NCBI GenBank assembly: GCA_016841605.1
Contig: JAENYV010000004.1
Coordinates: 186,001 to 250,000, forward strand
Direction of reading: 5' to 3'
DNA: 64,000 nt
Source of the DNA: Dethiobacter alkaliphilus
GTDB taxonomy: Bacteria; Bacillota; Dethiobacteria; DTU022; UBA8154
Shown here: positions 14,372-60,581 of the stretch, in pieces
How the letters are laid out: every line of letters starts with the position of its first letter
How positions within the stretch are numbered: the first letter of the stretch is position 1
Position numbers and translations under genes: made by a program
The notes under the pieces: model-generated
Database searches by the model: none
Told to the model about the DNA's origin: nothing
Seen by the model: the letters and a program-made list of their open reading frames with translations, nothing else

Positions 14372-14425
14372 ACATTTAAGTTTATGTATTCCATATTTTC
14401 CACAAAAGGAAAGGAGGAGTATTTT

Positions 14426-16072: not shown

Positions 16073-16100
16073 ATAGTTCCAATTGGGAGGGAAATAAAGA

Positions 16101-25404: not shown

Positions 25405-25950
25405 ATGACCCGGCAAGAAAAGAAATTTTCCGGTGTTGCGCTTGAAGGTAAACACCGTATCAACCTTACGGTAAACGGACAGCTCTACGAATTGGCAATA
25501 GGAAGAGGAGCAGGTAAGGTTAATCCAAGCGATACCCTTTCCTTTACACTCAGGGAGACTCTTGGGCTTACCGGGACAAAAGTATCCTGCGACAGCGGTG
25601 CCTGCGGGGCATGTACCGTGCTCATGGACGGACGAGCGGTTCTATCCTGCATGATGTTGAGCATTGAATGTGATGGAAAAGAGGTTACTACAATTGAAGG
25701 ACTGAAGGATCCCAAAACAGGAGAACTTGATCCCCTGCAGCAGTCATTTATCGATCATACGGCCTTTCAGTGCGGCTTCTGCACTCCTGGAATGATCATG
25801 AGTTCCAAGGCCTTACTGAATGATAATCCTTCTCCAACGGAAGAAGAGGTAAAAGAGGCTCTTTCGGGTAATTTTTGCCGGTGTATTACTCATTACCATG
25901 TTGTGGATGCTGTAATGGATGCAGCCAAAAAGGGAGTGGAGAGTAAATGA
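25405..25950 (+). CDS. Molybdenum hydroxylase, small [2Fe-2S] subunit (copy 2)
   Basis: 181-residue [2Fe-2S] subunit with CDSGACGAC plus a fourth cysteine in the ferredoxin domain, and CGFC...CRC in the helical domain. It differs from the 802 copy by few residues, and the 50-base leader (GATCAAAAGTGCCGGC, then a purine-rich ribosome site) is also shared. The start of the large-subunit gene overlaps its stop (ATGA). No module 1 operator precedes it, so the trio may be constitutive, separately controlled, or reached by read-through from promoter D. Confidence 0.93.
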   Translation: MTRQEKKFSGVALEGKHRINLTVNGQLYELAIGRGAGKVNPSDTLSFTLRETLGLTGTKVSCDSGACGACTVLMDGRAVLSCMMLSIECDGKEVTTIEGLKDPKTGELDPLQQSFIDHTAFQCGFCTPGMIMSSKALLNDNPSPTEEEVKEALSGNFCRCITHYHVVDAVMDAAKKGVESK

Positions 25951-30051: not shown

Positions 30052-31176
30052 CTACTGCTCCAGAAGCTTTCTTTGGTCTTCTTCGGCTTCCGGTGTCCAC
30101 AATCCTTTTTCCTTCCAAAAACGTACAGCTCCTTCATGGTATGGCGCATATAGATTGGAACTAAACATAGTTTCTTGCTTCCAATCTTTTAGAAGAGCGT
30201 GTTGAGGATGGAGTTCCTCATAGTTTTCGTAAAGAGTTTTAGTGATTTCATAGGCGGCATCAGCACTAAGCTTTGACGAAGCAACCAAACATGCATTAGA
30301 ATAAATTAGGGTAACATCCGATTTGAGTATCCCCACTTTCTCTTGTCGTGCGATATGAGAACCAGGCAAGTGATTTAAGAGTGCTTTTACTATTTCCTCT
30401 GGAGGATTATCTCCCTGCTCGGGGGGCAGGTCGCCAAAATTTAAGGCATGTAAGGGGGTTGACGAATCAACTTCGATGCCCTGAGCCCCTACCGGTGTAC
30501 CACCGAAAGATGCATCCAGACTTCCTTCTTGTATGGAACGTAGACTCACGATAGCATCAGGCACAGGCACCGGTAATACATCATCCCAGGTCAAGCCGAC
30601 TGATTCTAACGCAGCAGTTAGACTATTGTGCATTTCAATATTGCCTCCGAATTCGCTGCCGACCTTCTTGCCTTTTAATTCCTTGATTGACTTAATACCG
30701 GAATCAACCCGTACAGTCAGTGGAAGAATAGGTATTTTATGACCACAAACCAAAAGACGGAGGTTTTTGTATGGTTTGTCAAAGTTAATTCCCGTATAGG
30801 CCCAAATGGCATAATTACCGGATATTAAACCCAGTTCAAGCTTTCCCGTTTCCAGAAAAGGAATAAAAATATTGGGCCCGCCGATCGGTTCAACTTGCGC
30901 TTGTATAGGCGAGTAATCGCTAAGCACTTTGGCTACTCCTGTTCCAACGTCATAGAATGATCCGCCAATCTGATTTGTTCCAAGTACGACGGTTGCGGGC
31001 AGTTCTTCTTGCTTAGTAGTCTCATTTTCATTTTCCTTTGGAAGTGATGTCGGTTCAGAGCCGGATTGACATCCACTAAGTATTAGTCCCATAATAACCA
31101 GCAATATCAAGAAAAAACTAAAACACCGCAAATTAGCCTTTCTTTTCTTAACTTGTAACGCATATTTAACCTTCAT
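30052..31176 (-). CDS. TAXI-family TRAP solute-binding lipoprotein (module 2, distal)
   Basis: 374-residue receptor with lipobox LSGC (Cys36) and the TAXI opening GTNQIGGSFYDVGTGVAKVLS. It is the third gene of a minus-strand operon TAXI-permease-TAXI, separated from the permease by 336 bases. It resembles the module 1 receptor (21659) at least as much as its operon mate at 33540. It probably offers a second ligand specificity to the same permease, or replaces the other receptor under different conditions; neither is shown. Confidence 0.88.
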   Translation of the reverse strand: MKVKYALQVKKRKANLRCFSFFLILLVIMGLILSGCQSGSEPTSLPKENENETTKQEELPATVVLGTNQIGGSFYDVGTGVAKVLSDYSPIQAQVEPIGGPNIFIPFLETGKLELGLISGNYAIWAYTGINFDKPYKNLRLLVCGHKIPILPLTVRVDSGIKSIKELKGKKVGSEFGGNIEMHNSLTAALESVGLTWDDVLPVPVPDAIVSLRSIQEGSLDASFGGTPVGAQGIEVDSSTPLHALNFGDLPPEQGDNPPEEIVKALLNHLPGSHIARQEKVGILKSDVTLIYSNACLVASSKLSADAAYEITKTLYENYEELHPQHALLKDWKQETMFSSNLYAPYHEGAVRFWKEKGLWTPEAEEDQRKLLEQ

Positions 31177-31511
31177 TGTTTAAACCCCCTATTTTTTTTT
31201 GATACTTGACTGAACGCAATAGCCTTTCCGTAAAATATTGTCCTTATAAACACCCCCGTCCATCCATGCTTATTTTACTCTGGCTGATCACTGCTCCACA
31301 TAACTGTCGCCGGTATACTGGCTTCTCAGGTCACTATAGATAATCTAGGCCGGGCAATTTTAAGGGCATTGCCCGAGGCTTCAAGAACCAAAAACTACCT
31401 CAAGTTCCCATGCCAGCACGTATCTGGAGGCGGTACTGGCCGAATAATAAAAGCTTGTCCAATTAGAGACAACAGTTCGGTTTGAATTGTATGCACCTCT
31501 GCACCTCCACC
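31177..31511 (-). other. Gap inside the minus-strand TAXI operon
   Basis: No gene supported. On the minus strand it holds a hairpin CGGGCAAT/ATTGCCCG near 31350-31375 without a U-tract and a purine/T-rich approach to the TAXI start. No TetR-type operator is visible here. Confidence 0.4.
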
Positions 31512-33521
31512 TTAAAGAAGGCTGTTTTTTTGTCTGATTTTCTTTAGCCATTCGAACTTCCGGTGACGTAACTCCCACAAGAGCAGGGAGACGGCAATAA
31601 GAAACCCGGTCCCATTTACTATTGCGCCTGTTATCATGTTTTGCTTAAACGGGATAAGCAGGGTAACACCGGCCAGGCAAAACAGAACTCTGTGACCTGC
31701 CGGAAACAAATGATAAAAGTAACCGATCAATCCGACACCTAGGAGCAAAGTGCCGACAACTGCCGTTGTTACCGATAAAAGAATAACCGGCAACCCGGCA
31801 TTCGTTAGAATTAGAGACGGTGAGTATACGAATAAAAACGGGATTATATAAGCCAGTATGCCCAGGCGCATAGAGATTAAACCGATTTTGTTGGGGTTGG
31901 CGCCGACCAGGCTGGATGTAGCAAAACAGGCGAGTGCAACCGGTGGTGTCCAATTAGCTACTGTGGCAAAATAAAAAATAAATAGATGAGCAGCCAGCGG
32001 GAGAACACCCATTTCCACCAGCGCCGGCGCGATGAGAGTACCCACTAAAGCATAGGCCGGCACCGGAGGCATACCCATTCCAAGAATGACCGATGCTATA
32101 GCCGCGATAACAAGAAGCAATAACAGGTTGTTATTGCTAAAACTGGTGAGGGCATAGGCTATATTAAAACCAAACCCGCTGGCAGATGCTACCCCAATGA
32201 TTATACCGGCACCGGCGATCAGGGCGCTGATACTCATCAGCATCCGGCCGGTCCCTTCGAGAGTAGCTACGGCACGTTGTTTAAAATTGCTGCGATTGCT
32301 TTTGGTCGTTAAAAGGAACAGAACCGAGAAAAAGCTTGACACAACACCGGCAATGCTGGGATTGAGACGGATAATCATTAAGGTATAAATAAGGATACCT
32401 ATGCAAGGGATAATAACCCATCCTTCACGCAGAGCTGCTCGAGATTTTAAGATCTCGGTTTTCGGAATACCCACAAATCCTTTTTTCCCGGCTTCCAAAT
32501 CTACCTGGACAAACAATGCCACATAAAACAACAACGCCGGAATTAGGGCGGCAATGGCTACATCCGCGTAAGGTATACCCAGATTTTCGGCTATCATGAA
32601 GGCGATGATGCCCATGACCGGCGGCATGATCCCTCCCCCCGAGGAGGCGACAGACTCCACGGCTGCAGCATATACAGGGTCATACCCGGCTCTAGTCATT
32701 AGTGGAATGGTGACTGTCCCGGTGATCATGGCGTTGGTTGTGCAACCTCCGGTGACTGCACCAATGAGGCTAGACATTCCTACCGCCGCCTTAGCTGATC
32801 CGCCCCTTAAGCGTCCGAGGGTCGCGATGGCCAAATTGGCGAGATGATCAGTTCCTCCAAAAACGGTTAAAACATTGCCGAAGAAAATAAAAGCTAAAGC
32901 AATACCCGCGGCAAGAGTCATTTGACCAAGAATACTATTGGGGTCAACATAAAGAAAATCAATAAGCCTGAACCAGGGTGTGCCGATACTTTGTAACGGT
33001 CCGGGAAAAAAGTCGGCGTATCGGCCATAAAGGATAAAGGTAATAATGACAATTACAAAAACCCACCCCGCGAAGCGCCGGACCGCTTCAATGATAATAA
33101 GTATAGTCAGCATCCCCAAAACGGTTCTTTCAAAGGAAAGCACTCCCAAACTAAAAGCAATTTGGGGATAAAACCACGTAAGGTAAAGGCCTATGGGCAG
33201 TGCCAATACGGCAAGCAGACCGTCATACCAGGGCAAGCGATCACGCGAAGCATTGTTGCTTGCCGGCCTGGAAAAGAACACAGTGACGAAAACGATTGTT
33301 ATAAACAGGCCGACGTACTGCTCCGTGTATAAACCCCAACCAAAATAAGTATGTATACCTGATATGAAAAGAATCCCTAAAACAGGAACCAGGCAAAGCA
33401 GGAAGCGCTGCAGCAGGCCCAGTAGACCTGGGAGTGCCCGGAAATTTCCATTATCAGTCCAGGTGGCCTGTTTTTTTTGTTGTTCACAATTTTCCCGTAT
33501 GGTTTTTTTAATTGAGTTCAT
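31512..33521 (-). CDS. TRAP transporter fused permease, TAXI type (module 2)
   Basis: 669-residue fused 4TM/12TM permease, homologous over its length to the 23114 protein. Conserved segments include VGMSSLIGAVTGGCTTNAM, SSGGGIMPPVMGIIAFMIAE and GMGMPPVPAYALVGTLIAPA. ATG at 33521 follows AAAGAGGTTGAC on the minus strand, 18 bases after the preceding TAXI gene, so the two are translated from one mRNA. It imports an unidentified organic acid for the module 2 pathway. Confidence 0.9.
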   Translation of the reverse strand: MNSIKKTIRENCEQQKKQATWTDNGNFRALPGLLGLLQRFLLCLVPVLGILFISGIHTYFGWGLYTEQYVGLFITIVFVTVFFSRPASNNASRDRLPWYDGLLAVLALPIGLYLTWFYPQIAFSLGVLSFERTVLGMLTILIIIEAVRRFAGWVFVIVIITFILYGRYADFFPGPLQSIGTPWFRLIDFLYVDPNSILGQMTLAAGIALAFIFFGNVLTVFGGTDHLANLAIATLGRLRGGSAKAAVGMSSLIGAVTGGCTTNAMITGTVTIPLMTRAGYDPVYAAAVESVASSGGGIMPPVMGIIAFMIAENLGIPYADVAIAALIPALLFYVALFVQVDLEAGKKGFVGIPKTEILKSRAALREGWVIIPCIGILIYTLMIIRLNPSIAGVVSSFFSVLFLLTTKSNRSNFKQRAVATLEGTGRMLMSISALIAGAGIIIGVASASGFGFNIAYALTSFSNNNLLLLLVIAAIASVILGMGMPPVPAYALVGTLIAPALVEMGVLPLAAHLFIFYFATVANWTPPVALACFATSSLVGANPNKIGLISMRLGILAYIIPFLFVYSPSLILTNAGLPVILLSVTTAVVGTLLLGVGLIGYFYHLFPAGHRVLFCLAGVTLLIPFKQNMITGAIVNGTGFLIAVSLLLWELRHRKFEWLKKIRQKNSLL

Positions 33522-33539
33522 TTTAAGTCAACCTCTTTT

Positions 33540-34631
33540 TTACTGTTCCAGAAGCTTGTTTTGCGTTTCCTCTGCCTCCGGAGTCCATAATCCTTTTTCC
33601 TTCCAGAAGCGTATTGCTCCCTCATGATAAGGTGCAGGTTGATCGGAACTGAACATGGTTTCCTGCCTCCAATCTTTCAGCAAATCATGGATGGGGTGGA
33701 GTTCCTTGTTGTTTTCATAAATGGCCTTGGTAATTTCATAGGCAGCTTCCGTACTCAACTTGCTTGAAGCTGCGAACCAGGAAACAAAATTAATTGCGGT
33801 GCAATCCGATTTAAGGAAACCCTCTTTTTGTTGCCGGTATATGTTTGTACCGGGCATATATTTCTGTAACACTTTGATTAGCTCTTCAGGCTGGTTATCA
33901 CACTCCTCGGGGGGTAGATCGCCGAAATTCAGCGCTTGCAAAGGAATAGCCGCGTCGATTTCCAGGTTAAGAGCACCTGTTGGTGTGCCGCCGAATGATG
34001 CATCAACGCGTCTTTCTTGCAGGGCTCGTATGGCTGATGATGGATCTGCTACAGGTATTTCTTTAACATCACTCCATGTAAGGCCGACAGACTCCAGAGC
34101 CGCGGATATACTTAACTTACCAGTAATGAAACTTCCATACCCACCGGCTACCCTCTTCCCTTTCAAATCCTTGATTGAAGTAATACCGGAATCAATGCTT
34201 ACTACCAGGGGAATTGTAGGATTTCCGTGGCCGCGAACTAGTACCCTCATGTTTTTGTACGGCTTTTCATAGCCTGGTCCTCCGTTGTAGGACCAGGCTA
34301 AATCATTTCCGGATTCGATGCCCAACCCTAGTTCCCCGGATTCCAATAAGGGGTTAAAGGCAACCGGCCCGGCACTTGGCTTTATTACTACCTTAATCGG
34401 CAAGTGATCGCTAAGAACCTTGGCTACTCCTGCTGCGACTATATAACTGGAACCGCCGGTAGGAAAAGTGCCTAGCCCGACTGTTGCCGGCAGTTCTTCC
34501 GGTGTTGTCGGGTTTGTACCTTGATTGGACTTTTCTTGTACATTGTTTGAGAAAGATGTACAACCGCCCAGAATCAGGACAATGAATAACATCGGTACCC
34601 AGGCAGCCCAGAACCAGGAAAATCGCCGCAT
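33540..34631 (-). CDS. TAXI-family TRAP solute-binding lipoprotein (module 2, proximal)
   Basis: 363-residue receptor; lipobox LGGC (Cys24), TAXI opening GTFPTGGSSYIVAAGVAKVLS. First gene of the minus-strand transporter operon, with AGGAGG just before the ATG. Its promoter (34802-34829) carries the same operator as the catabolic promoter at 35836, so import and catabolism of module 2 are probably co-regulated by the TetR protein at 35075. Confidence 0.9.
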   Translation of the reverse strand: MRRFSWFWAAWVPMLFIVLILGGCTSFSNNVQEKSNQGTNPTTPEELPATVGLGTFPTGGSSYIVAAGVAKVLSDHLPIKVVIKPSAGPVAFNPLLESGELGLGIESGNDLAWSYNGGPGYEKPYKNMRVLVRGHGNPTIPLVVSIDSGITSIKDLKGKRVAGGYGSFITGKLSISAALESVGLTWSDVKEIPVADPSSAIRALQERRVDASFGGTPTGALNLEIDAAIPLQALNFGDLPPEECDNQPEELIKVLQKYMPGTNIYRQQKEGFLKSDCTAINFVSWFAASSKLSTEAAYEITKAIYENNKELHPIHDLLKDWRQETMFSSDQPAPYHEGAIRFWKEKGLWTPEAEETQNKLLEQ

Positions 34632-34984: not shown

Positions 34985-35074
34985 AACATTATGTTGTATT
35001 CTTCCTTACAAAATTATTACATAAGGGGTTATGGAAAAACGTAGTATAATAAGTTTAAACAGGAGGTGATTAAA

Positions 35075-35680
35075 ATCGATAAAAATGAGACAGTTATCGA
35101 CCGCAAAGAACAAATTATGGAGAAAGCTACGTTACTGTTTTATAAAAATGGCTATGATAATACGTCAATCAGAGAACTTTCTCATGCTACCGGATTGAGC
35201 GTTGCCGGAATCTATTATTTTTTTAAAGATAAAAAGGAGATTCTGTTTAGTATTCTTCATGAATCCGTCATTAATTTAAATAATTCTTTAAAAGCATCCA
35301 TTAGTGAAAAAGATGATCCGATAGTAAATTTAACAAAGATGATCGAAAATTTATTAAAGCATGTCATAGAATATAAAATGGTAATTACTATTCTTGCCCG
35401 GGAAAACGAAAGGTTAAACGATGAGCAGTTTGTAATTATTAACCGAAAAAAACGTGATGCGTATGATTTAGTAAAAAATGAATTGGCTAAACTGGAAAAA
35501 CAGGGAAAACTTAAGTCAATAAATTTAACACCTGCTATTTTTGCCGTCTTTTCTATGACAAACTGGTCCATAAGATGGTATGATCCGGATGGTCCGCTTA
35601 TGCTTGAGGAAATTGCCGCAGAAATGGCCAAGATTTTTTTTACTGGTGTTCTTAAAAATAGTAAATTCCCACCTGATTAA
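35075..35680 (+). CDS. TetR/AcrR-family transcriptional regulator 2
   Basis: About 200 residues with an N-terminal helix-turn-helix (NTSIRELSHATGLSVAGIYYF). It is distinct in sequence from regulator 1. The start is unusual: the near-perfect Shine-Dalgarno AGGAGGTGAT (35061-35070) swallows the only upstream GTG (35066), and the codon at normal distance is ATC at 35075; the first in-frame ATG (35117) would cut into the first helix. It lies between two divergent promoters that share the palindrome TTAACGARYGnTCACTAR, its likely target. Inducer unknown. Confidence 0.85.
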   Translation: MDKNETVIDRKEQIMEKATLLFYKNGYDNTSIRELSHATGLSVAGIYYFFKDKKEILFSILHESVINLNNSLKASISEKDDPIVNLTKMIENLLKHVIEYKMVITILARENERLNDEQFVIINRKKRDAYDLVKNELAKLEKQGKLKSINLTPAIFAVFSMTNWSIRWYDPDGPLMLEEIAAEMAKIFFTGVLKNSKFPPD

Positions 35681-36173: not shown

Positions 36174-36956
36174 GTGACCTTGGAAACTGTGTTGCACGAA
36201 AAGAATGATTCGGTTGCCGTCATAACATTGAACCGCCTTGAGAAAATGAATGCCTTAAACTCACAGTTGTTGGGAGAGTTGAGCGAACTTCTCGATCAGT
36301 ACGAAAGTGACGGAAGCGTAAGCGCGCTGGTGATAACAGGCAGTGGAAAAGCATTTTGCGCAGGAGGTGACGTTAGCCGTGACGATAACGGCGATCCCCT
36401 TCAAACTTTCCTCAAATTCGCCCGACTTACACGTGACACTTTCCATAAGATTGAGATATTTAAGAAGCCCGTCATTGCGGCGATGAATGGTTTTGCCTTC
36501 GGTGGCGGCCTTGAATTGGCCCTTTGCTGTGATATGCGCGTTGCGTCGGAAAAAGCAAAAATGGGATTGACGGAAACCAAATTAGGAGTTGTTCCCGGAG
36601 CCGGCGGTACACAACGCCTGCCACGGCTTATTGGAACGGCATTAGCCAAGCAGCTTATTTTTACCGCAGGGATTATCAGTGGAGCAGAGGCCTATCGGAT
36701 CGGTCTGGTTAACGCAGCTGTTCCGCCGGAAGAGTGCCTCAGCAGGGCGGTGGAGTTGGCCAAAGAAGTGTCGTTAAGGGCACCGTTGGCTGTGCAAGCT
36801 GCCAAGAAGTGCATTAACATGAGCCGGCAGGTTGACCTGGAGTCCGGGTTGGATTATGAAGCTGAATGTGTCAAGTATGTGTTTACCAGCGAAGACAAGC
36901 AAGAAGGAGGTAATGCCTTCAGGGAGAAACGCGATCCGGTTTGGAAAGGGCGGTAA
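36174..36956 (+). CDS. Enoyl-CoA hydratase (crotonase family), module 2
   Basis: 260 residues from a GTG start 7 bases after GGGAGG. Catalytic Glu114 (GGGLEL) and Glu134 (LTETKLG) are present, along with FCAGGDV and PGAGGTQRL. First gene of the module 2 catabolic operon, where the DUF35 gene follows after 35 bases. It is the counterpart of the 5070 gene. In a bbs-like pathway it is the hydratase step after the acyl-CoA dehydrogenase at 40267. Confidence 0.93.
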   Translation: MTLETVLHEKNDSVAVITLNRLEKMNALNSQLLGELSELLDQYESDGSVSALVITGSGKAFCAGGDVSRDDNGDPLQTFLKFARLTRDTFHKIEIFKKPVIAAMNGFAFGGGLELALCCDMRVASEKAKMGLTETKLGVVPGAGGTQRLPRLIGTALAKQLIFTAGIISGAEAYRIGLVNAAVPPEECLSRAVELAKEVSLRAPLAVQAAKKCINMSRQVDLESGLDYEAECVKYVFTSEDKQEGGNAFREKRDPVWKGR

Positions 36957-36991
36957 TAAAATTCACATAATAATTTGTTTAGGAGGTTGCC

Positions 36992-37408
36992 ATGAGTAGC
37001 GATTTGAAACCAATGTTGGATGGTATTTTTGAAGTAGGACCGCCCCCAAGATTACTGGGAGCCGAGTGTCCGATATGTGAGCGCAAGTTTTTTCCGAAGC
37101 CGATAGTATGTCCCCACTGCCTGGAGGACGTAAAGGAAATAAAGCTAAATACGGAAGGAACAGTTTATAGTTTTTCCATCTTGCGGATACCGAATATGTT
37201 GTACAAATATCCTCAACCCTATGCCAGCGGCTATATTGATCTTGACGGCGATAATATTCGGGTCTACGGGTTGTTTGATCCGGAAAAGACGGAAGAAATA
37301 GCGATTGGACAGCGGGTCACGTTAAAGGTCGGACAAATCGGTATCGGTCTGGACGGCGAGGAATGCTTGCGGTATTATTTTACCCCCGTCGATGGAGGTG
37401 GAAAGTGA
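36992..37408 (+). CDS. DUF35 zinc-ribbon/OB-fold protein, thiolase partner (module 2)
   Basis: 138 residues; zinc ligands Cys26, Cys29, Cys40 and Cys43, then an OB-fold. ATG follows AGGAGG. The stop overlaps the thiolase start (TGATG), the same coupling as in module 1. By family knowledge it is the small subunit of an SCP-x-type thiolase, as BbsA is for BbsB. Confidence 0.88.
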   Translation: MSSDLKPMLDGIFEVGPPPRLLGAECPICERKFFPKPIVCPHCLEDVKEIKLNTEGTVYSFSILRIPNMLYKYPQPYASGYIDLDGDNIRVYGLFDPEKTEEIAIGQRVTLKVGQIGIGLDGEECLRYYFTPVDGGGK

Positions 37409-38559
37409 TGAGAGCTGTAGATATTATTGGCGTAGGCATGTTTCCTTTTGGGGTTCATAAAACGACACCACTGGTGGAAATGGGAGTTCGTGCTGCTGTT
37501 GAGGCTATCAAAGATGCCGGTGTTAAGCCGTCTCAGATTAATATTGGCTTCTTTGCCAACATGCAGGCAGGTAACCTGACCAAGGAGTTTACGACAGGGC
37601 AGGCTGTCATGTGGGGAGCCGGGGTAAATAAAGTTCCTGTGTTCAATATTGAGAACGCCTGTACCTCAGGGGCCTCCGCGACTACTTTAGCCATGATGAG
37701 CATTGCTTCCGGACAGTATGACCTGGCTCTTGTCGTGGGTGCAGAGAAGTTGAATGTGCCTTTTGTTCCCCTGTTAAACCCCAGTATGAGGGATATTAAT
37801 GTTTTAGAGGGCAATGTTGTTATCAACGGTTTTGCCCAGCGCGCGGTCAGGCACATGTATGAATACGGCACTACGAAAGAGCAGTTAGCCATGGTTGACG
37901 TCAAAAACAGGCGCAATGCCCTCTTGAATCCAAAGGCCAAGTTTTTTAATAAGCCGGTGACCCTGGAAGAAGTGCTGGGTTCCACGATGATGTCGGATCC
38001 GCTGACAAAATTGAGTTGCTGTCCAAACTCTGACGGTGCAGCGGCCCTCGTGCTCTGTGCCGCTGAACTTTCCAGCAGATATACAACCAGGCCGATTCAT
38101 TTGAAAGCATCTGTTCTGGTGTCAGGTGTCTTTGATGAATGGCCTGATATGCAAACATTTGAAGAGGATCAGCGTGCCGGTCGTACGGCATATGAGACGG
38201 CAGGGCTTGGGCCGGAAGATGTGAGTGCGGCTGAATGTCACGATGCCTTTACCATTTGTGAGGTAATGCACACGGAGAACCTGGGGTTCTGCCCGATCGG
38301 CGAGGGTGGTCCGTTCGTGGAATCAGGGGCGACCAGTCTTGGCGGGAAGATACCTGTGAACGTCTCGGGAGGATTGCTTGGAAAGGGACATCCTCTGGGC
38401 GCTACAGCTGCCGCGCAGATCGTTGAAGGCGTAATACAGCTCCGAGGAGAGGCCGGCGACCGCCAGGTAGAGGGTGCCAAGGTGTTCCTGACGGAATGCA
38501 TGGGAGCCGAGTTGCGCGGGGATGCAAAGACCTGCACTGTAAATATCCTGACAGTTTAA
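37408..38559 (+). CDS. SCP-x-like thiolase (module 2)
   Basis: 383-residue thiolase with nucleophile Cys85 (NACTSGAS), ECHDAF and GGLLGKGHPLGAT motifs. ATG at 37408 overlaps the DUF35 stop; upstream in-frame codons lie within the DUF35 gene and are not used. It ends the beta-oxidation round by releasing acetyl-CoA or another short acyl-CoA. Very similar to the 11020 protein, including the unusual FFANMQAG segment. Confidence 0.92.
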   Translation: MRAVDIIGVGMFPFGVHKTTPLVEMGVRAAVEAIKDAGVKPSQINIGFFANMQAGNLTKEFTTGQAVMWGAGVNKVPVFNIENACTSGASATTLAMMSIASGQYDLALVVGAEKLNVPFVPLLNPSMRDINVLEGNVVINGFAQRAVRHMYEYGTTKEQLAMVDVKNRRNALLNPKAKFFNKPVTLEEVLGSTMMSDPLTKLSCCPNSDGAAALVLCAAELSSRYTTRPIHLKASVLVSGVFDEWPDMQTFEEDQRAGRTAYETAGLGPEDVSAAECHDAFTICEVMHTENLGFCPIGEGGPFVESGATSLGGKIPVNVSGGLLGKGHPLGATAAAQIVEGVIQLRGEAGDRQVEGAKVFLTECMGAELRGDAKTCTVNILTV

Positions 38560-38594
38560 TTGATTTTTTAATTGATTAGAGGAGGTTCGAAAGA

Positions 38595-39344
38595 ATGGAT
38601 TTGAATTTGGCAGGCAAGACAGCGGCAGTAGTTGGTGGAGCAATCGGTATCGGCAAAGCTGTTTGTTTGACGTTGGCAGCTGAGGGATGCAAAGTGGGTG
38701 TTATTGATAAGAACATAGAGGCAGCAGAGGCAATGGTCAAGGAGATCGAGGGTCAAGCGTCAGCCGCACAGGTGGATCTGACCGATTTTAACAGCGTCAG
38801 CGCTGCTTTTGCCAAAGTTGTCGCTGATTTGGGGCCGGTAGATATTATGGTCTTTGCCGATGGAATATATGATACTTTTGGGACCGTTAAACAGACGAGC
38901 GTGGAAACATGGGATAACGAACTGGCTTACACTCTATCCGGCGCTTTCTATTGCATCAAGGCGGTGGGTCCATCCATGAAAGAGCGCAAGTGGGGCAGGA
39001 TAATTAATATTTCGAACCGAGCGGTAACGAGCGGTGCTTACGGGCAAAGCGCCCACATTGCGTCCATGGCGGGACTTTTTGGTTTGACCAAGACAGCGGC
39101 ATTGGAGTATTCTCGTAAGAACATCACCTGCAATCTTCTTTTACCCGGTCTGGTCGACACACCTGCTTATCGGGCTCTTCCTGAAGCAATTCAGGAAAAA
39201 CTTTTCAACAAGGGTCTGACAAAACGTTTGCAGGAGCCTGAAGAAATTGCCAATGTGATCGCCTTCCTTTGCAGCGATTATGGAAAAGGGATCACCGGAG
39301 CCGAAGTTGACGTAACGATGGGCAATGAGCTGTTTGTATTTTAG
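38595..39344 (+). CDS. SDR-family protein lacking all catalytic residues (BbsC-like)
   Basis: 249-residue short-chain dehydrogenase fold in which the whole catalytic tetrad is replaced. Aligned with its neighbour at 39432, Asn becomes Thr113, Ser becomes Asn141, Tyr becomes His154 and Lys becomes Met158. The glycine-rich nucleotide loop is kept in part (VGGAIGIG). The gene is otherwise undamaged, has a good AGGAGG, and keeps normal length, so it is selected for as a protein. In the anaerobic toluene pathway the BbsCD dehydrogenase pairs a dead SDR subunit with a live one; this gene occupies the bbsC position directly before a live SDR gene. A structural role in a hetero-oligomer is therefore my best inference. 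Confidence 0.88.
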   Translation: MDLNLAGKTAAVVGGAIGIGKAVCLTLAAEGCKVGVIDKNIEAAEAMVKEIEGQASAAQVDLTDFNSVSAAFAKVVADLGPVDIMVFADGIYDTFGTVKQTSVETWDNELAYTLSGAFYCIKAVGPSMKERKWGRIINISNRAVTSGAYGQSAHIASMAGLFGLTKTAALEYSRKNITCNLLLPGLVDTPAYRALPEAIQEKLFNKGLTKRLQEPEEIANVIAFLCSDYGKGITGAEVDVTMGNELFVF

Positions 39345-39431
39345 AACAGGTTTTCTGGAATTATCATGTTTGCCTTCATGCTCAAAGGTGCAAATATTCT
39401 TTAAAATCGATTTTATCAGGAGGTTTGAAAT

Positions 39432-40250
39432 ATGGATTTAAAATTGTCCGGCAAGACCGCAGTGGTAACTGGTGGAGCAAGAGGTATCGGACGCGCTGTT
39501 TGTCAGGTTTTGGCAGCTGAAGGGGCCAGCGTTGCTGTTTTTGATATCCTTGCGGAGGCAGCGGAAGAAACCGCGCAGATGATCCGGGAGACCGGTAAAA
39601 AAGCTGTGGCGTGTTCAGTAAATTTGGCTGAATACTCCAGCGTAAAAGCGGCCATGGATAAGGTAAAAGCTGAGTTGGGGCCGATTGACATTGTGGCCTG
39701 TGTTGCCGCTATTACCGATAACATGGGGACTATCGAAAAGATGCCGGTTGAAAAATGGACCAGAGAAATAAAAGTCAATCTGTCGGGTTGTTTCTACTGT
39801 GTCAAAGAGACCATTGAGTCAATGGTTGAGCGCAAATTCGGCCGTTACATTTTTGTTTCGTCGAGGGCAGGTATGGACGGCGGCTATGGCCAGTGCTCCT
39901 ATTCATCGAGCAAGATGGGTCTCATTGGTTTTGCCCGGTCGTTATCATTGGAGTATGCCCGGATGGGGGTAACCAGCAATATTGTCTTCCCCGGCCTGGT
40001 CAATACGCCTGCTACAGCCGGACTTACCGATGAGGCCAGGGCGCGCATTATTGCCCGGGGTGTGATGGGGCGTTTGCAGGACCCTGAAGAATTGGGCAAT
40101 GCTATAGCCTTCCTGGCCAGCGAACAGGCGAAGGGCATCAATGGCGCGGAAGTTATGGTAAGCATGGGACCCGCGCCCTACTCTTTCCGCCCGATGAATC
40201 TTCCAGGCGATGAGGCTGCTTTAGAAGAAATCATTAAACTTAAACAGTAA
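39432..40250 (+). CDS. Short-chain dehydrogenase/reductase, active (BbsD-like)
   Basis: 272-residue SDR with TGGARGIG (13-20) and complete tetrad Asn116, Ser144, Tyr157, Lys161. It would oxidise the 3-hydroxyacyl-CoA produced by the hydratase. It is closer to the module 1 SDR (12221) than to the inactive neighbour at 38595, and has a 20-residue C-terminal extension. ATG follows AGGAGG. Probable partner of the 38595 protein. Confidence 0.9.
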   Translation: MDLKLSGKTAVVTGGARGIGRAVCQVLAAEGASVAVFDILAEAAEETAQMIRETGKKAVACSVNLAEYSSVKAAMDKVKAELGPIDIVACVAAITDNMGTIEKMPVEKWTREIKVNLSGCFYCVKETIESMVERKFGRYIFVSSRAGMDGGYGQCSYSSSKMGLIGFARSLSLEYARMGVTSNIVFPGLVNTPATAGLTDEARARIIARGVMGRLQDPEELGNAIAFLASEQAKGINGAEVMVSMGPAPYSFRPMNLPGDEAALEEIIKLKQ

Positions 40251-40266
40251 TACGGAGGTTTAATTT

Positions 40267-41442
40267 ATGGACTTCAAACTTACTGAAGAACAGGAGTTAT
40301 TAAAGAAAAATGTGGGAGATTTTGCCCGACAAGAGTTGGCTCCCATGGTGCAAGAGGTCGATGAAAAGGGAGGCTTCTCCTGGGATGTCTGGTGGAAGCT
40401 GGCCTCTGTGGGAATCCAAGGCTTATCCGGTCCTGAAGAATACGGAGGAGCAGGCGTCACCAGCCTGCTCACCCAGGTCATGGTTATTGAAGAGCTGGCC
40501 CGTTATGATTTTTCATCTGCCGCGAACATTGTCTCCAATTGGGCGATGATACGAAAACTCAATGATGACGGTAGTGAAGAGCATAAAAAACGCTATCTTG
40601 AGCCGCTCTGCAATGGTGAGATAGTGGGATCTTTTGCCCAGACCGAGCCCAACTCCGGTTCGGATGTTGCCTCGCTGAGCACAACTGCTCGTCTGGAAGA
40701 CGGTTACTACGTCCTGAACGGAGAGAAATGTTTTGTAACGCAAGCGGGAGAGGCGGAGTTCACTTTTGTTGTGGCCAGGACCGGCACCAAAACGGGTAGG
40801 AATGCTATCAGTACTTTCTTAGTGGAAAAAGACAGGGAGGGCTACATTCTCGGAGAAAAAGAATCCAAACTCGGTTATCGGGGTTCAACCACCCGTACGC
40901 TGGCCCTTGTGGACTGCAAAGTTCCGGCTTCCAACATGATGGGAGAAGAAGGGAAGGGCCTCAATACGGCATTAAAGGGTCTGGCGAGTGGGCGGCTGCT
41001 CACAGCGGCTCAGGCCCTGGGTCAGACACAGGCGGCCCTGGACGCTTCCATTCAGTATGCCAAGGAACGTGTCCAGTTCGGCAGGAACATCGGGAGTTTT
41101 CAGCTTATCCAGGGGATGCTGGCGGATATGGCCATAGACCTTGAGTCCGCGCGGCTTTTAACTTACTATGCTTGCTGGCTAAGGGATAACGATCGGCCGT
41201 TTGCTATTTATTCTTCTATGGCCAAGACCCTTGCTACCGATGTAGCCATGAAGGCGGGCGTGGATGCAGTGCAAATTTACGGGGGCTATGGATTCATGCG
41301 TGACTATCCGGTAGAGAGCATTATGCGTAATGTGAAGATTACCCAGATCTACGAGGGGACCAATCAGATCCAGCGGCTGATTATTGCTCGTGAATTGCTG
41401 GGGGATAAAAGGTCGTTCAGGGAATTGTACGGTCAAAAATGA
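40267..41442 (+). CDS. Acyl-CoA dehydrogenase (module 2)
   Basis: 391 residues, FAD-dependent. FAQTEPNSGSD near residue 124 and IYEGTNQIQ near the C terminus with catalytic Glu363. ATG follows TACGGAGG only 16 bases after the SDR gene, so it is in the same operon. It aligns with the 13193 protein almost gap-free. It corresponds by position to BbsG-type dehydrogenases; the electron acceptor (ETF) is not encoded here. Confidence 0.92.
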   Translation: MDFKLTEEQELLKKNVGDFARQELAPMVQEVDEKGGFSWDVWWKLASVGIQGLSGPEEYGGAGVTSLLTQVMVIEELARYDFSSAANIVSNWAMIRKLNDDGSEEHKKRYLEPLCNGEIVGSFAQTEPNSGSDVASLSTTARLEDGYYVLNGEKCFVTQAGEAEFTFVVARTGTKTGRNAISTFLVEKDREGYILGEKESKLGYRGSTTRTLALVDCKVPASNMMGEEGKGLNTALKGLASGRLLTAAQALGQTQAALDASIQYAKERVQFGRNIGSFQLIQGMLADMAIDLESARLLTYYACWLRDNDRPFAIYSSMAKTLATDVAMKAGVDAVQIYGGYGFMRDYPVESIMRNVKITQIYEGTNQIQRLIIARELLGDKRSFRELYGQK

Positions 41443-41488: not shown

Positions 41489-43150
41489 ATGGCTCAAGGT
41501 ATGTCGCGGGAGAGAGTAATACATGTGCTTCTTGAACAGCAGGCCGCAAAATACGGCAGGCGAACCTACATTTATTATGAAGATAAAGAGTATAGTTTTG
41601 AGGAAGTTAATAATGCTGCCAACCGGGTTGCCAGTGGTCTGCAAAAATTGGGGGTCGTCAAAGGGGATAAAGTTGCTGTTGTGATGGAAAGCTGCCTCGA
41701 AGCAATCTTACTGATGTTTGGCCTGTCGAAGTTGGGAGCTGTTGAGGTACCTCTTAATATTTTTCATAAAGGCGAACTAATGACCTACATGTTGGATCAT
41801 TCGGACGCCGCTTTACTGGTCATGCATAGCCACTACACGGATCGTTTGAAGCCGGTGTTGGAAAAAACAACGAAAATACACTCCGTTGTGGTCCTGGAAG
41901 GAGACGAAAGCGATAAGGCTTCTTCCGACAGCAAGGCCGGTGCGGCTCCGGCGGAAGAAGAGATCCGCGCACTCGGCAGGCAAACAATGCAATGGCCTGA
42001 GCTCATGGACAATGATGGCAGTTATCAGCAGCCGCCTGTTATCTGGTCCGATCCGCTCCTGCTTTTGTATACATCGGGAACCACCGGCTTGTCGAAAGGT
42101 GTTGTGCTTCCGCAGAATCTTTTCTACAGTATGGCAGAGCGTTTTTACAGCTGGGTTTTGGAAGGGAATTTGGATGAGAACGATTGTATTTATGTCCCTA
42201 CGCCCCTTTTCCATGCCCACTCCTGGCACACCGGCATTAATCTTGCCCTGTTGAGAGGAGCGCGTATGTTGCTGATCAAAAGGTTTTCTGCGAGCAAGTA
42301 CTGGGATGATATTAAACGCTATAACTGCACCATTTCCACCGGTGGCGGTGCCCGGCTGCCGATCTTGCTCCTGGCCGAGCCCACTCCTGACGATGCCGAC
42401 AATCCGCTCAAAGTTATTTTGGGGGGTCCGGCTTCAGAGAAGCTCTGCGCGGCCTTTGAGCCGCGGTTTGGAGTTAAGATTATGGAGTTTTATGGGTCGA
42501 CAGAGCTTGGTGCTCCCGCGTTTAATCAAGTTTCAGATGCAAACCGCAAACCCGGCTCCTGCGGAAGAATACATCCGGATTTTCTTATTAAGTTTGTGGA
42601 CGACGATGGCGAGGAGGTCGGAGTCAACGAGCCCGGTGAGATGCTCATTCGTCTTGTGCGGCCGTACTCCATGATGCTTGAATATTATAAAATGCCGGAA
42701 AAGACGATGGAAACCTGGAGGGATCTCTGGTTTCATACCGGCGATCGCGCTCGTCTTGATGAAGATGGCTTTATCCATTTCGCTGATCGAAAAAAAGACT
42801 CTTTGAGACGCCGCGGGGAGAATATTTCCTCCTTCGAAGTTGAAAGGATCATCAACATGCACCCGGCTGTCCATGAATCGGCCGTATTTGGGGTAACATC
42901 CGAACTGGCGGAAGATGATGAAGTCATGGTCAGTCTGGTTCTTAAACCGGGGCAAAAGCTCTCGCCGGAAGATCTTATTGCCTTTTGCGAAGATCGCATG
43001 GCCTATTTCATGGTGCCAAGGTACGTGCGTTTTATGGAGGAGCTTCCCAAGAACGTTATCTTCAAAGTGGAGAAATACAAGTTGCGTGACGAAGGGGTCA
43101 CACCGGACACCTGGGACAGGGAAAAGGCCGGTTATAAGCTTAAGCGTTAA
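41489..43150 (+). CDS. Acyl-CoA ligase, AMP-forming (CaiC-like), module 2
   Basis: 553-residue ligase with YTSGTTGLSKG, EFYGSTE, WFHTGD, FADRKKDSLRRRGENIS and a C-terminal KVEKYK lysine. ATG follows GGAGGG. It activates the imported acid to its CoA ester at the cost of two phosphate bonds. Compared with the 14426 protein it has a short alanine- and acid-rich insertion around residues 140-155. The presence of a ligase replaces the succinyl-CoA-dependent transferase (BbsEF) of the toluene pathway. Confidence 0.92.
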   Translation: MAQGMSRERVIHVLLEQQAAKYGRRTYIYYEDKEYSFEEVNNAANRVASGLQKLGVVKGDKVAVVMESCLEAILLMFGLSKLGAVEVPLNIFHKGELMTYMLDHSDAALLVMHSHYTDRLKPVLEKTTKIHSVVVLEGDESDKASSDSKAGAAPAEEEIRALGRQTMQWPELMDNDGSYQQPPVIWSDPLLLLYTSGTTGLSKGVVLPQNLFYSMAERFYSWVLEGNLDENDCIYVPTPLFHAHSWHTGINLALLRGARMLLIKRFSASKYWDDIKRYNCTISTGGGARLPILLLAEPTPDDADNPLKVILGGPASEKLCAAFEPRFGVKIMEFYGSTELGAPAFNQVSDANRKPGSCGRIHPDFLIKFVDDDGEEVGVNEPGEMLIRLVRPYSMMLEYYKMPEKTMETWRDLWFHTGDRARLDEDGFIHFADRKKDSLRRRGENISSFEVERIINMHPAVHESAVFGVTSELAEDDEVMVSLVLKPGQKLSPEDLIAFCEDRMAYFMVPRYVRFMEELPKNVIFKVEKYKLRDEGVTPDTWDREKAGYKLKR

Positions 43151-43228: not shown

Positions 43229-45331
43229 GTGAAAACTGGCATAGAAAGCCTTTTAAACCCGCATTCAGTGGTAGTGTTCGGTGTTTCCGAACTAGAGGGC
43301 AAGGCCGGCAACTCGGTCGTAAAACATCTTCTGGAAGGCAGCATTCGGGTTTACGGCATTAACCCCAAAGGAGGAACATTGTTCGGATTGCCCATTTATC
43401 GCCGTATTGAGGAGTTGCCGGAGGTGCCGGATTTGGCCGTAATTGCCCTGCCCGCGGAGCTGGCGCCGGATACTGTCCGCGCTTGTGCCGGACGGGGAAT
43501 AGGCGCAGTAATTGTCATTGCCGGCGGTTTCAGTGAAATCGGTGAAGCAGGGGAAAAATTGGAACTGGAACTAAAGGAGGCAATTACCGGGACACGAACT
43601 CGTATCCTTGGTCCTAATACATTAGGCTTACTTATCCCACGGCTTAAGCTGGACACTATTTTTCTTCCCTCCAGTCACCTCAGGCGGCCTTCTCCGGGAA
43701 ATATTGCCATTATCTCTCAGAGCGGCTCGGGGGTAATGGGTGCACTGGATATTGGGGCTTTCTATGGAGTAGGACTTGGCGCTTTCGTCGGATTGGGTAA
43801 CAGGATTGACATCGACGAAAACGAGCTAATAGAGTATTTCGGAGATGATCCCCACACCTCAGCCATCGGTATGTATCTGGAGAGCTTTGTCGATGCGCAA
43901 AGATTTGTCGATGCCTGTGGTAGGGTAAGTTCTCGCAAACCGCTGGTGCTTGTCAAGGCAGGACGCTCTTCAGCCGGTGCCCGAGCCGTAGCACTGCACA
44001 CAGGGTCCCTCGCAGGATCGGATCGGGTTACCGGCGGTGTGCTCAGCCAGTTAGGCATTTTCAGGGCCTATGACGACGAGGAATTATTGGACGCGGTCCG
44101 TGTCCTCGCCCACGGAAAGCCGCTTGCCGGCCGACGGGCAGTAATTTTGACCGGGGGCGGCGGAATGGGAGTTATTACCGCGGACTATGTGGAGGCACAG
44201 GAAAAGGGCATTGCCGCCTCCCTGGCCACACTGGATCCAAACACAGAGGCCAGGCTGGCCAGGATAGCCCTTCCTTACGCTTCGGTTCGCAATCCCATTG
44301 ACCTGACCCCCGTTGCCGGCAATGATATGTATGAGGCAGCACTGGAGATTCTCCAGGACGATCCGGGGGTTGACGTTATTATCGTCTGCCTTATGTATCA
44401 CAATGCGAAGAAAGGCGACAAGTTCACAGAGAGGCTTTGTCACTGGGGTAAACAAGGGAAAAAGCCGCTTATTGCTGCGGCCATCGGTTCCGAGACTACC
44501 ATCCGGGCCATTCGGCAGATGGAAGCTGCCGGAGTGCTCGCCCTTCCGTCCTTCCGTCGAGCAGTAAAGGCCGTGGACCTCCTCGCCCAACGAGCTGAGT
44601 TTCTTCGTCGAGAAAATTCGCCCGGGCAGAGTGTTTCGATGGTTTCGGTACCGGGCAAAGTTGACACGGAGCAGGCGTTTGTGCCCAAGCCCGGTATACC
44701 ACTGGCTGAAGACGAGGTTAAGGCTGTGCTCCGCAAGCGCGGCATATGTACCCCGGATTCAATCGTGTTGCCTGGGGGAGAATTGCCCGCGGAGATACCC
44801 TTTCCGTTTCCCCATGTGATAAAGATAAGATCGAGTGACGTTCTCCACAAAACAGAACTGAAGGGGGTGGTACTTAATATTAAGAATCCGGAGACTTTAG
44901 AGAAGACCGTCAAGGAGATGCGTTCACGTTTTCCCGGCCAGGACTTGCTCATGGAACGAATGGAGCCTTCGGGAGTGGAGATTATCGTGGGACTTATTGA
45001 GGACGCCACATTCGGGTTGTCAATTATGTGCGGAATAGGGGGTATCCTGGCCGAACTATACCGGGACGTAACCTTCCGACGGGTACCCATCAATAGTCTT
45101 GATGCCGATAACATGCTGCGCGATTTAAAAGCACACGCTCTTTTTGAGGGATTCAGAGGGATAAGGGTGAGTCGCGAGGCAGTGATCGATTTACTTCTCA
45201 AAGTTTCCAGCCTAGGCCTTGACCTCCGTGGAAATATAGACCAGATGGATCTCAATCCGGTTATTGTGCGCGAGGATAAGGCCATAGTTGTTGATGCGAA
45301 GTTGATCTGGAAGGCCGAAATAACGGCGTAA
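43229..45331 (+). CDS. Acyl/acetyl-CoA synthetase, ADP-forming, fused alpha-beta
   Basis: 700-residue fusion: CoA-binding Rossmann domain (about 1-130), ligase-CoA domains with the phosphorylated His257 (ALHTGSLAG), and a C-terminal ATP-grasp domain (about 475-700, with KIRSSDVLHKTELKGV). It turns acyl-CoA + ADP + phosphate into acid + ATP, conserving the energy of the thiolase product, or works in reverse. GTG start with AAAGGAG about 9 bases upstream. Present only in module 2. GC content is higher than in its neighbours, suggesting a different origin. Confidence 0.9.
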   Translation: MKTGIESLLNPHSVVVFGVSELEGKAGNSVVKHLLEGSIRVYGINPKGGTLFGLPIYRRIEELPEVPDLAVIALPAELAPDTVRACAGRGIGAVIVIAGGFSEIGEAGEKLELELKEAITGTRTRILGPNTLGLLIPRLKLDTIFLPSSHLRRPSPGNIAIISQSGSGVMGALDIGAFYGVGLGAFVGLGNRIDIDENELIEYFGDDPHTSAIGMYLESFVDAQRFVDACGRVSSRKPLVLVKAGRSSAGARAVALHTGSLAGSDRVTGGVLSQLGIFRAYDDEELLDAVRVLAHGKPLAGRRAVILTGGGGMGVITADYVEAQEKGIAASLATLDPNTEARLARIALPYASVRNPIDLTPVAGNDMYEAALEILQDDPGVDVIIVCLMYHNAKKGDKFTERLCHWGKQGKKPLIAAAIGSETTIRAIRQMEAAGVLALPSFRRAVKAVDLLAQRAEFLRRENSPGQSVSMVSVPGKVDTEQAFVPKPGIPLAEDEVKAVLRKRGICTPDSIVLPGGELPAEIPFPFPHVIKIRSSDVLHKTELKGVVLNIKNPETLEKTVKEMRSRFPGQDLLMERMEPSGVEIIVGLIEDATFGLSIMCGIGGILAELYRDVTFRRVPINSLDADNMLRDLKAHALFEGFRGIRVSREAVIDLLLKVSSLGLDLRGNIDQMDLNPVIVREDKAIVVDAKLIWKAEITA

Positions 45332-45396: not shown

Positions 45397-46782
45397 TTGA
45401 GCGCTTATCTTGAAAAAATGTCGGAGAATATTTTAAGCACTGTTTTTGAAAACTTTGATCAAGAAAAACTGGAAAATGCAAAATATCGTCTTATCGATGT
45501 TTTAGGTTGTGTGATAAGTGGTGCAAACGCTGCCGGCAATTTAGCTCTAGTTGATCTGGTTAAGGCCTGGGGAGGCCGGGAAGAAGCAACAATTTTCGTT
45601 CATGGCGGCAAAGTGCCGGCACATAATGCTGCGCTGGTAAACAGTGTTATGGCCAGATCTTACGATTTTGAAGCAACCCAGGCGCGTGTTGATGGTGTTA
45701 ATATCGCCTCCCATATTAGCGGGACAACGGTAACGACAGCTTTAACCCTGGGGGAAACTGTAGAGACAAACGGAAAAGAATTAATTACGGCTTTACTGGT
45801 CGGCGATGATATGGCCTGCAGAGTACTGGCTGCTTCCGGTTTTGGATTTACTTTGGGATGGGATAACGTGGGAACAGTAAATGCACTGGCCGCGACAGCA
45901 ATCGCGGGACGGTTGTTGGGATTGACACAAAACCAACTGCAGAATGCTTTTGGCATTGTTTTAAATCAATTAGCCGGCAGTTTTTCGACAATATGGGATG
46001 GAGCCGGCGCTTTTAAACTCGTGCAGGGTCTCTCAGCCAGAAACGGTATTTTTTCAGCGGAGTTGGCCAAAGTCGGTTGGACCGGCCCCAAAGATGCTCT
46101 GCTCGGTAAATTCGGCTATTTTAATCTTTATACTGAAGGATGCAGTAATCCTGATATTCTCATAAAGGATCTGGGTAAAAGTTATCATACGGAAGTTACT
46201 TATAAACCATATCCCGGCTGTCGTGCCAATCATACTGCTGTGGATTGTGCCCTTAATTTCGTGGCAAAATACGATTTACAAATTGATGAAATAGAGCAGA
46301 TAACACTTCAAGTCCCTGCCGCGGTCCGCGAAATGTTTGTGGGGCAACCTTTTATCATTCGTGATGTTCCCCAAATAGATGCAGGTTTTAGCCTTCGCTA
46401 TTGTGTGGCAAATATCTTATTAAGAAAAAAAATAACTTTGGAACACTTCCAAGATGCTTTAATCAGAGATCCTCACATTAAAATTATTACTGATAAAATC
46501 GCCATTGAAGAATTAGATAATTTGGAAATTCAAACAAGGAAAGCCCTTTTAAAAGTAAAGATGAAGGATGGAAAAGAGTACTATGCGGATGCAGCCTTTC
46601 CTAAAGGCGATCCGGTGTTAAATCCTCTTTCCAAAGAGGAAGTAAAAGAAAAGTTTATGAACAATATAGCTTTTTCCCGAACAATAAATAAAGGGAATGC
46701 GGAAAAGATCCTAAATATTATTGAGAACCTTGAAAAAGCTGTTAACCTGGGTGAGTTAATAGGGCTGATGAAAATATCATAA
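45397..46782 (+). CDS. MmgE/PrpD-family protein (module 2)
   Basis: 461 residues from a TTG start 6 bases after TGGAGGA. Conserved MARSYDFE, HISGTTVTTAL and YPGCRANHTAVDCAL segments match the 16101 protein along the full length. The family includes 2-methylcitrate dehydratase and cis-aconitate decarboxylase. Because both modules end their catabolic operon with this gene, it should carry out one pathway step, perhaps on a branched dicarboxylate; the reaction is not known. Confidence 0.86.
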   Translation: MSAYLEKMSENILSTVFENFDQEKLENAKYRLIDVLGCVISGANAAGNLALVDLVKAWGGREEATIFVHGGKVPAHNAALVNSVMARSYDFEATQARVDGVNIASHISGTTVTTALTLGETVETNGKELITALLVGDDMACRVLAASGFGFTLGWDNVGTVNALAATAIAGRLLGLTQNQLQNAFGIVLNQLAGSFSTIWDGAGAFKLVQGLSARNGIFSAELAKVGWTGPKDALLGKFGYFNLYTEGCSNPDILIKDLGKSYHTEVTYKPYPGCRANHTAVDCALNFVAKYDLQIDEIEQITLQVPAAVREMFVGQPFIIRDVPQIDAGFSLRYCVANILLRKKITLEHFQDALIRDPHIKIITDKIAIEELDNLEIQTRKALLKVKMKDGKEYYADAAFPKGDPVLNPLSKEEVKEKFMNNIAFSRTINKGNAEKILNIIENLEKAVNLGELIGLMKIS

Positions 46783-46950: not shown

Positions 46951-48303
46951 ATGAATATTAACACCGGTACCGCCATAAATCCAAGCATATCAAGCCGATT
47001 GGAGCGCCTGCCACATAAATCATACTTGATCAATATAAATATAGTATTGTTAACATCTGTCCTTGCTGCAACCTTTATCAATAATGGATTCCAATACATT
47101 ATGCCGGGTTTGCAGGCTTATTTGGATATTCCCCCTGAAGTTTTAGGAACCCTGGCGTCACTAGCCTTTCTTGGCATGTTCTTTGGTGCCATGATAGGCG
47201 GACAATTGGCAGATAGAATTGGCAGGAAGCCGGTTATCATAGGATCTATGATTATCTGGGGAATTGCCGGTCTCATACTGCCGTATTCCAGTTCTGTATT
47301 GCAGGTTCAAGTGTGTCGTTTTTGTATTGGGTTTGGGTTAGGGGCGCATCTTCCGACGGCTGCTGTTTTGCTGAGTGAAATGGTCCCTTCGCGTTTACGC
47401 GGCAAGTACCTTGTAGGCAATATAGCAACTATGGCATTTGGAATGTCTTTGGTGGGATTTGCGACTTATTTTTTATTGCCTAAGTGGGGCTGGCAGGGTG
47501 CTGCCACATTAGATGCACTTTGTGCATTATGGGTTATTATCATCTGGAAAATATTGCCTGAATCTGCTCTCTGGTTGAATGCTGTAGGCAGGCATGCAGA
47601 AGCTGAAAAGATAATGGGAAAAATTGAGAACACCATACAAGAACGCACCGGGCAACTGTTGCCACAACCTGTAGAGGTTAATCCCGTTGGCGTTTCTGCC
47701 GAAAAGAGCGAAGAGAGCAAATCACTTTGGACTAAAGCTTACATGGGACTTGTGCTTTTGATGACAGTATACATGCTTTGCCAAATGATGGGTAATTATG
47801 GTATTAATATGTGGTTAAGTTCCATGCTAGTTGCGAAGGGCTTCGCTTTGAAAAAATCCGTACTCTATGTTGCCTTTCTTTCTCTTGGCGGTTTGCCGGC
47901 TTTATTCCTGGTGGGTTACCTGGTTGACAAGATTGGTAGGAGATTGGCTCTTGCAGTAATGGCTTTGTTGACTGCTATCTTTGCCTTTTTCTATGGCCAG
48001 GCAGCAACTTATGTCATGATTATTTTTACCGGTGCGCTTTATCAATTTATGCAGACCGGCTATAACATGTCCTCTATGGTGTTTACAACAGAAGTGTGGC
48101 CGACGAGCGTGAGGGGCATGGGTAAAGGATACGCCCAGGCGTGTGGCCGAATAGGAGCCTTTTTAGGACCTTTGGTTGCAGGATTTATCATGGCTTCCCA
48201 GTCCGGCCCTAATGGTGTAATACTCTTTGCTGTTATCGTTAATATTACTGCTGCAGTTATAGTCTATTTCTTTGCACCTGAGACAAAGGGTAAAGTATTC
48301 TAG
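46951..48303 (+). CDS. MFS transporter, organic/aromatic acid symporter type
   Basis: 450-residue major facilitator protein with twelve predicted helices. The loop 2-3 signature is GGQLADRIGRK (about 83-93), repeated in the second half as VGYLVDKIGRR. Overall pattern fits the aromatic acid:H+ symporter or related metabolite:H+ families. ATG follows AAAGGAGG; a strong terminator follows at 48361. It ends module 2 and gives a second, proton-driven uptake route next to the TRAP system, or an export route for an end product. Confidence 0.85.
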   Translation: MNINTGTAINPSISSRLERLPHKSYLININIVLLTSVLAATFINNGFQYIMPGLQAYLDIPPEVLGTLASLAFLGMFFGAMIGGQLADRIGRKPVIIGSMIIWGIAGLILPYSSSVLQVQVCRFCIGFGLGAHLPTAAVLLSEMVPSRLRGKYLVGNIATMAFGMSLVGFATYFLLPKWGWQGAATLDALCALWVIIIWKILPESALWLNAVGRHAEAEKIMGKIENTIQERTGQLLPQPVEVNPVGVSAEKSEESKSLWTKAYMGLVLLMTVYMLCQMMGNYGINMWLSSMLVAKGFALKKSVLYVAFLSLGGLPALFLVGYLVDKIGRRLALAVMALLTAIFAFFYGQAATYVMIIFTGALYQFMQTGYNMSSMVFTTEVWPTSVRGMGKGYAQACGRIGAFLGPLVAGFIMASQSGPNGVILFAVIVNITAAVIVYFFAPETKGKVF

Positions 48304-60536: not shown

Positions 60537-60581
60537 CAAAATAGCAAAAAGTGTTATATTAAATAATGGGTGATCACAACA

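Follow-up and report, generated by a model that had tools for sequence, protein, structure and literature searches.

A putative pseudoenzyme SDR paired with a live paralogue in a beta-oxidation operon of Dethiobacter alkaliphilus, apparently convergent with BbsC/BbsD

The window, a stretch of 64,000 nucleotides on contig C13 of the 4.07 Mb Dethiobacter alkaliphilus genome, contains a beta-oxidation operon at positions 36174-41442, designated here module C. Its families were assigned with Pfam and NCBIfam. The order of the genes, all on the plus strand, is hydratase, DUF35/zinc protein, SCP2-type thiolase, SDR1, SDR2 and acyl-CoA dehydrogenase; a preliminary description of this DNA had given the same order, and both the open reading frames and the profiles agreed with it. 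The enoyl-CoA hydratase (ECH; 36174-36956; Pfam ECH_1, crotonase families) has a BbsH-like position and role. It is followed by a DUF35 / ChsH2-type Zn-ribbon and OB-fold protein (36992-37408; Pfam zf-ChsH2 and OB_ChsH2_C), in which all four zinc-ribbon Cys are present (sequence CPICERKFFPKPIVCPHC). The SCP2-type thiolase (37408-38559) has intact ENACTSG, ECHDAF and GHPLGA motifs, and its start is most likely 37408 (MRAVDIIG) rather than 37363. SDR1 (38595-39344) and SDR2 (39432-40250) come next, and the acyl-CoA dehydrogenase (ACAD; 40267-41442), assigned from family profiles, follows them.

A TetR-type regulator (35066-35680, plus strand; Pfam TetR_N and TetR_C_24) lies immediately 5' of the operon, as one also does in front of the related operon of BL5_bin.2 (L009 1307-1879; translation read by eye), a MAG labelled Desulfotomaculum sp. 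Further along the same strand the operon continues with an AMP-forming acyl-CoA ligase (41489-43150; family profiles), a single-chain NDP-forming acyl-CoA synthetase (43229-45331), an MmgE/PrpD family protein (45397-46782) and an MFS transporter (46951-48303) whose nearest family is aromatic acid/H+ symport. The synthetase is also found in the copies of BL5_bin.2 and of G002, a genome of the same genus. The MmgE/PrpD gene is shared with G002 and missing from the BL5_bin.2 and Cu122 copies, and the MFS transporter lies 3' of the module in four of four genomes. By reading, a TAXI-type TRAP transporter set with two binding proteins and one fused permease is divergent from the operon (30052-34631, minus strand), and a protein like REP-associated (Y1-type) transposases is encoded at 60570-61349.

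SDR1 belongs to the classical SDR (adh_short) superfamily by Pfam, by its Rossmann SDR fold and by its glycine-rich loop GGAIGIG. As described previously, its Asn-Ser-Tyr-Lys tetrad is wholly gone, with Thr113, Asn141, His154 and Met158 in the four positions, and the neighbouring SDR2 keeps it complete (N116, S144, Y157 and K161). The same T/N/H/M was read in three further loci, one in G002 and two in BL5_bin.2, so the loss is not due to chance or to a sequencing error. In Cu122P5bin5, where a contig end cuts the gene and only 126 residues were used, SDR1 reads ?/D/Y/M. The single-chain AlphaFold2 model of SDR1 is a complete SDR (pLDDT 90.9), and the best Z score among the best 50 structural matches, obtained with VIA-align, was 37.9 to FabG-type SDRs. 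SDR1 ends in a short ELFVF, as single SDRs do. SDR2 has gained about 20 residues at its C terminus; SDR1 lacks them, and they were predicted with low confidence in the single-chain model.

Since its catalytic residues are lost, SDR1 might be taken for a decaying, functionless pseudogene. This is extremely improbable. The frame is open in all copies and intact in the related loci except Cu122, which ends with the contig, and the same residues are fixed across genomes. The dN/dS between genomes was 0.07-0.09 for SDR1 and 0.08-0.09 for SDR2; the values are equal, so selection constrains SDR1 as strongly as it does the live enzyme. Pseudogene decay was rejected on this selection pattern, which indicates that SDR1 is under purifying selection.

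Contig C13 carries three related modules, A, B and C. Module A (C13:160308-167432) consists of ECH, DUF35, thiolase, SDR1, SDR2, ACAD and ligase, and its SDR1 is half-dead (T/S/Y/M), with Asn and Lys lost and Ser and Tyr kept. Module B lies within the window (10607-17492, plus strand) and comprises DUF35 (10607-11020), thiolase (11020-12168), a single live SDR (12221-12979), ACAD (13193-14371), ligase (14384-16072) and a PrpD-like gene (16101-17492), with a likely ECH at 5070-5852. The same single-SDR type was found in G415 (L052) and in BL5_bin.2 (L044). These modules share the ECH, DUF35, thiolase and SDR families with module C, as well as the ACAD and ligase where the contig allows, and are the nearest relatives of all its parts, but differ from it in having only one SDR, which is live. 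C-type modules were present in G002, twice in BL5_bin.2 (L009 and L011) and in Cu122P5bin5 (L010/L045). The SDR1-SDR2 pair is adjacent in six loci from four genomes; a tetrad-less SDR adjoins a live paralogue and is kept with it as a pair. On plasmids, the thiolase and SDR relatives were all below 60%.

Nine differences were fixed in all SDR1 compared with all SDR2 and single SDRs: A89D, N113T, G144V, D146S, G148A, K158M, T192Y, I203L and N234T. Mapped onto the standard SDR motifs, most of these lie in the NNAG region, on the catalytic Asn and Lys, within the active-site loop or at the nicotinamide-contacting Thr of PGxxxT. The glycine-rich loop was kept throughout. Since SDR1 of module A lacks Asn and Lys and keeps Ser and Tyr, the tetrad was lost stepwise, Asn and Lys going first and Ser and Tyr later. 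The module A protein may have residual activity, because Ser and Tyr are kept.

The preliminary description had placed this operon in a bbs-type pathway. The likeness is real: a Zn-finger/DUF35 protein with an SCP2-thiolase, a dead and a live SDR in BbsC-BbsD order, an ACAD and a hydratase are all there, and the closest solved thiolase is BbsB. Membership of the bbs family was contradicted by scores and trees. The thiolase scored 259 bits against the BbsB model NF053628 (cut-off 750) and the DUF35 protein 55.5 bits against the BbsA model NF053627 (cut-off 250). The ACAD shares 27-31% identity with the proteins in the BbsG position of bbs-ordered operons. The class III CoA-transferase pair BbsE/BbsF is missing from the operon and the AMP-forming ligase stands in its place, as the preliminary description had said. 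No match to a PFL-like glycyl-radical enzyme (PF02901) was found in the 98%-complete genome in a search that detected the controls. Module C showed none of the five bbs features tested and is not a bbs operon.

The trees agreed with the scores. BbsC, BbsD and the SDRs of bbs-ordered operons formed one group, and the window family formed another (100/99), nearest to 7x5j. Within the window family, the single SDRs of G415 and module B fell outside, and SDR1 and SDR2 were sisters (98/98). Forcing SDR1 together with BbsC was rejected (86.6 log units worse, p-AU 1.2e-8), as were SDR2 with BbsD (p-AU 3e-38) and SDR1 with the bbsC-position SDRs. In this tree the BbsC of T. aromatica sits on a long branch, and two shorter BbsC sequences cluster with it. 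The thiolase tree was congruent: the G415/B type diverges first, followed by A and finally C, and BbsB lies in another clade (100/99). These results indicate that SDR1 and SDR2 derive from a tandem duplication within a family of modules with a single live SDR. Since both trees separate the window family from bbs, the dead/live SDR pair arose twice, and the SDR1/SDR2 pair is therefore convergent with BbsC/BbsD.

For reference, bbs loci were collected from other genomes, and T. aromatica BbsC and BbsD were obtained as well. BbsB above its cut-off was absent from the window's class, from the phylum sample and from the gammaproteobacterial sample. The phylum of G963 gave one, in G1258 (768 bits, cut-off 750), and G968 gave a truncated match with 714 bits. 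Both loci (L075 and L076) hold BbsB, BbsC, BbsD, two CoA-transferase-like genes, ACAD and ECH; the genes downstream of the SDRs were assigned by reading. The BbsC of G968, used as query, retrieved T. aromatica BbsC (7pcs_A) from the PDB. The latter was absent from the best 60 phmmer matches of SDR1 or of a bbsC-position SDR, and its absence from the best 50 structural matches of SDR1 excludes nothing. Three operons in bbsABCDEFGH order (L049-L051) came from the phylum sample and BL5_bin.2. They resemble module C in the order DUF35, thiolase, SDR, SDR, but both of their SDRs keep the full tetrad, their SDRs and thiolase fall in the BbsD/BbsB clades, and, like L075-L076, they carry two CoA-transferase III genes (by reading). 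One of them (L050:2070-16423), from a relative in the window's phylum, has a PFL2-type glycyl-radical enzyme upstream; its live SDRs at both the bbsC and bbsD positions suggest that some bbs operons do without a dead BbsC.

Module C could still be read as a true bbs-type operon, orthologous to bbsABCD-GH, with aryl- or alkyl-succinates as its substrates and a ligase in place of BbsEF. In its favour are the shared order of zinc protein, thiolase, dead SDR and live SDR and the solved BbsB structure named above. The separate trees, the BbsA and BbsB scores far under their cut-offs and the divergent ACAD speak against it. The glycyl-radical enzyme missing from this genome adjoins the bbs loci L050 and L075, in both as the PFL2 type, and BL5_bin.2 holds a bbs-ordered operon (L051) and a C-type module (L009) as distinct things. 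This reading is very unlikely, and for ancestry it is largely refuted. The SDRs group with reductases other than BbsC and BbsD, which removes the common origin and leaves the analogy in working intact; it is plausible that module C is bbs-like in how it operates.

SDR1/SDR2 and BbsC/BbsD are alike in that a dead SDR and then a live SDR come straight after a Zn-finger/SCP2-thiolase pair, and the reaction type, 3-hydroxyacyl-CoA oxidation, is the same. In T. aromatica BbsC, which reportedly serves as a scaffold, both the tetrad (G/D/V/R) and the glycine loop are lost. Two BbsC copies, likely from Desulfobacterota (L075:8630-9379 and L076:1090-1890), keep N/S/Y/K and have altered glycine-rich loops, GACDDIG and GACDEVG. 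SDR1 is the opposite of these two copies, with the tetrad lost and the loop kept. Human KAR1 (HSD17B8/CBR4; PDB 4cql/4cqm), a heterotetrameric ketoacyl reductase, is also a heteromeric SDR, and its fold is one of those nearest to SDR1 (Z about 37), although it is eukaryotic and not close in sequence. To our knowledge, KAR1 has no tetrad-less subunit of the SDR1 sort. Our literature search returned nothing relevant on other bacterial pseudo-SDR heteromers.

Because the glycine-rich loop is kept, SDR1 may retain NAD(H) binding or serve some other purpose. SDR1 might be a separate protein with a new function, for instance a regulator that binds NAD(H) or an enzyme that uses His154, and not a subunit of SDR2. 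The loop and the strong purifying selection fit this proposal, as does His154, which four of the five C-type copies have in common. However, SDR1 always directly adjoins SDR2, and the Tyr of T192Y would leave little room for the nicotinamide. Cu122 has Tyr in place of His154, which is thus not a conserved new catalyst. The BbsCD precedent, taken from the title of von Horsten et al. as given in ref. 26 of PMC10818641, also argues for a subunit, and a separate function seems unlikely. Another reading is that SDR1 is an NAD(H)-sensing, non-catalytic subunit that regulates SDR2, having kept the adenine-side nucleotide loop for this purpose and evolved separately from BbsC, in a fermenting aromatic-acid degrader in which the NADH/NAD+ ratio limits 3-hydroxyacyl-CoA oxidation; we regard this as quite unlikely.

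The co-conservation of SDR1 with SDR2 and the BbsCD precedent point to a hetero-oligomer. We infer that the dehydrogenase is probably a heteromer, with SDR2 as its catalytic subunit and SDR1 as a convergent pseudoenzyme subunit. The two proteins would form one enzyme, SDR2 carrying out the chemistry and SDR1 serving only as a structural scaffold. SDR1 would have come from a tandem duplication of the one SDR that the module originally had, keeping its fold and glycine-rich loop. In the pathway, activation by the ligase would most likely be followed by the ACAD, the ECH, the SDR1/SDR2 dehydrogenase and finally the thiolase/DUF35 pair.

An aryl- or alkyl-substituted succinate had been suggested as the substrate. 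Nothing points to one. As no PFL-like enzyme was found in the genome, benzylsuccinate-type adducts are not made here, though import is possible; a substituted succinate is a very improbable substrate. The MFS transporter type is conserved behind the module in the four genomes. The surrounding island encodes HBCR/XDH-like molybdenum hydroxylases, HadBC-like dehydratases and an indolepyruvate:ferredoxin oxidoreductase (IOR) alpha subunit that scores over its cut-off. On this circumstantial evidence, we tentatively suggest an aryl-alkanoic (aromatic side-chain) acid such as phenylpropanoate; a branched or alicyclic acid is also possible. A BamA-like hydrolase on contig C8, isolated from the island (364 bits, cut-off 464), weakly supports a benzoyl-CoA route. 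The scores do not establish a bzd/bcr reading of the HgdAB-like pairs in the island, which match 2-hydroxyisocaproyl-CoA dehydratase best, far under the cut-offs.

Two full molybdenum hydroxylase sets with HBCR/XDH-like large subunits lie in the window at 1272-4612 and 25405-29212, and another small-subunit gene lies upstream of it (C13:132201). By reading, the 326-aa FAD subunits have a Cys-rich insert resembling the 4Fe-4S loop of 4-hydroxybenzoyl-CoA reductase. A second catabolic block is duplicated outside the window (C13:133766-144827 and C13:175690-183270), with 2-hydroxyacid dehydrogenase, CoA ligase, IOR alpha/beta and HadBC-like dehydratase subunits each present twice.

Should the complex be confirmed, dead SDR subunits would have evolved at least two times at one and the same step of beta-oxidation operons of the thiolase/Zn-finger kind. 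The routes would differ, the tetrad being lost first here and the glycine loop having changed in those BbsC copies where the tetrad is kept. Two origins would suggest that selection has a real reason to break the symmetry of the homotetramer at the 3-hydroxyacyl-CoA step. One genome holds the whole series, from a single live SDR through a pair with a half-dead SDR1 to a pair with a fully dead SDR1, and the birth of a pseudoenzyme subunit is therefore experimentally tractable.
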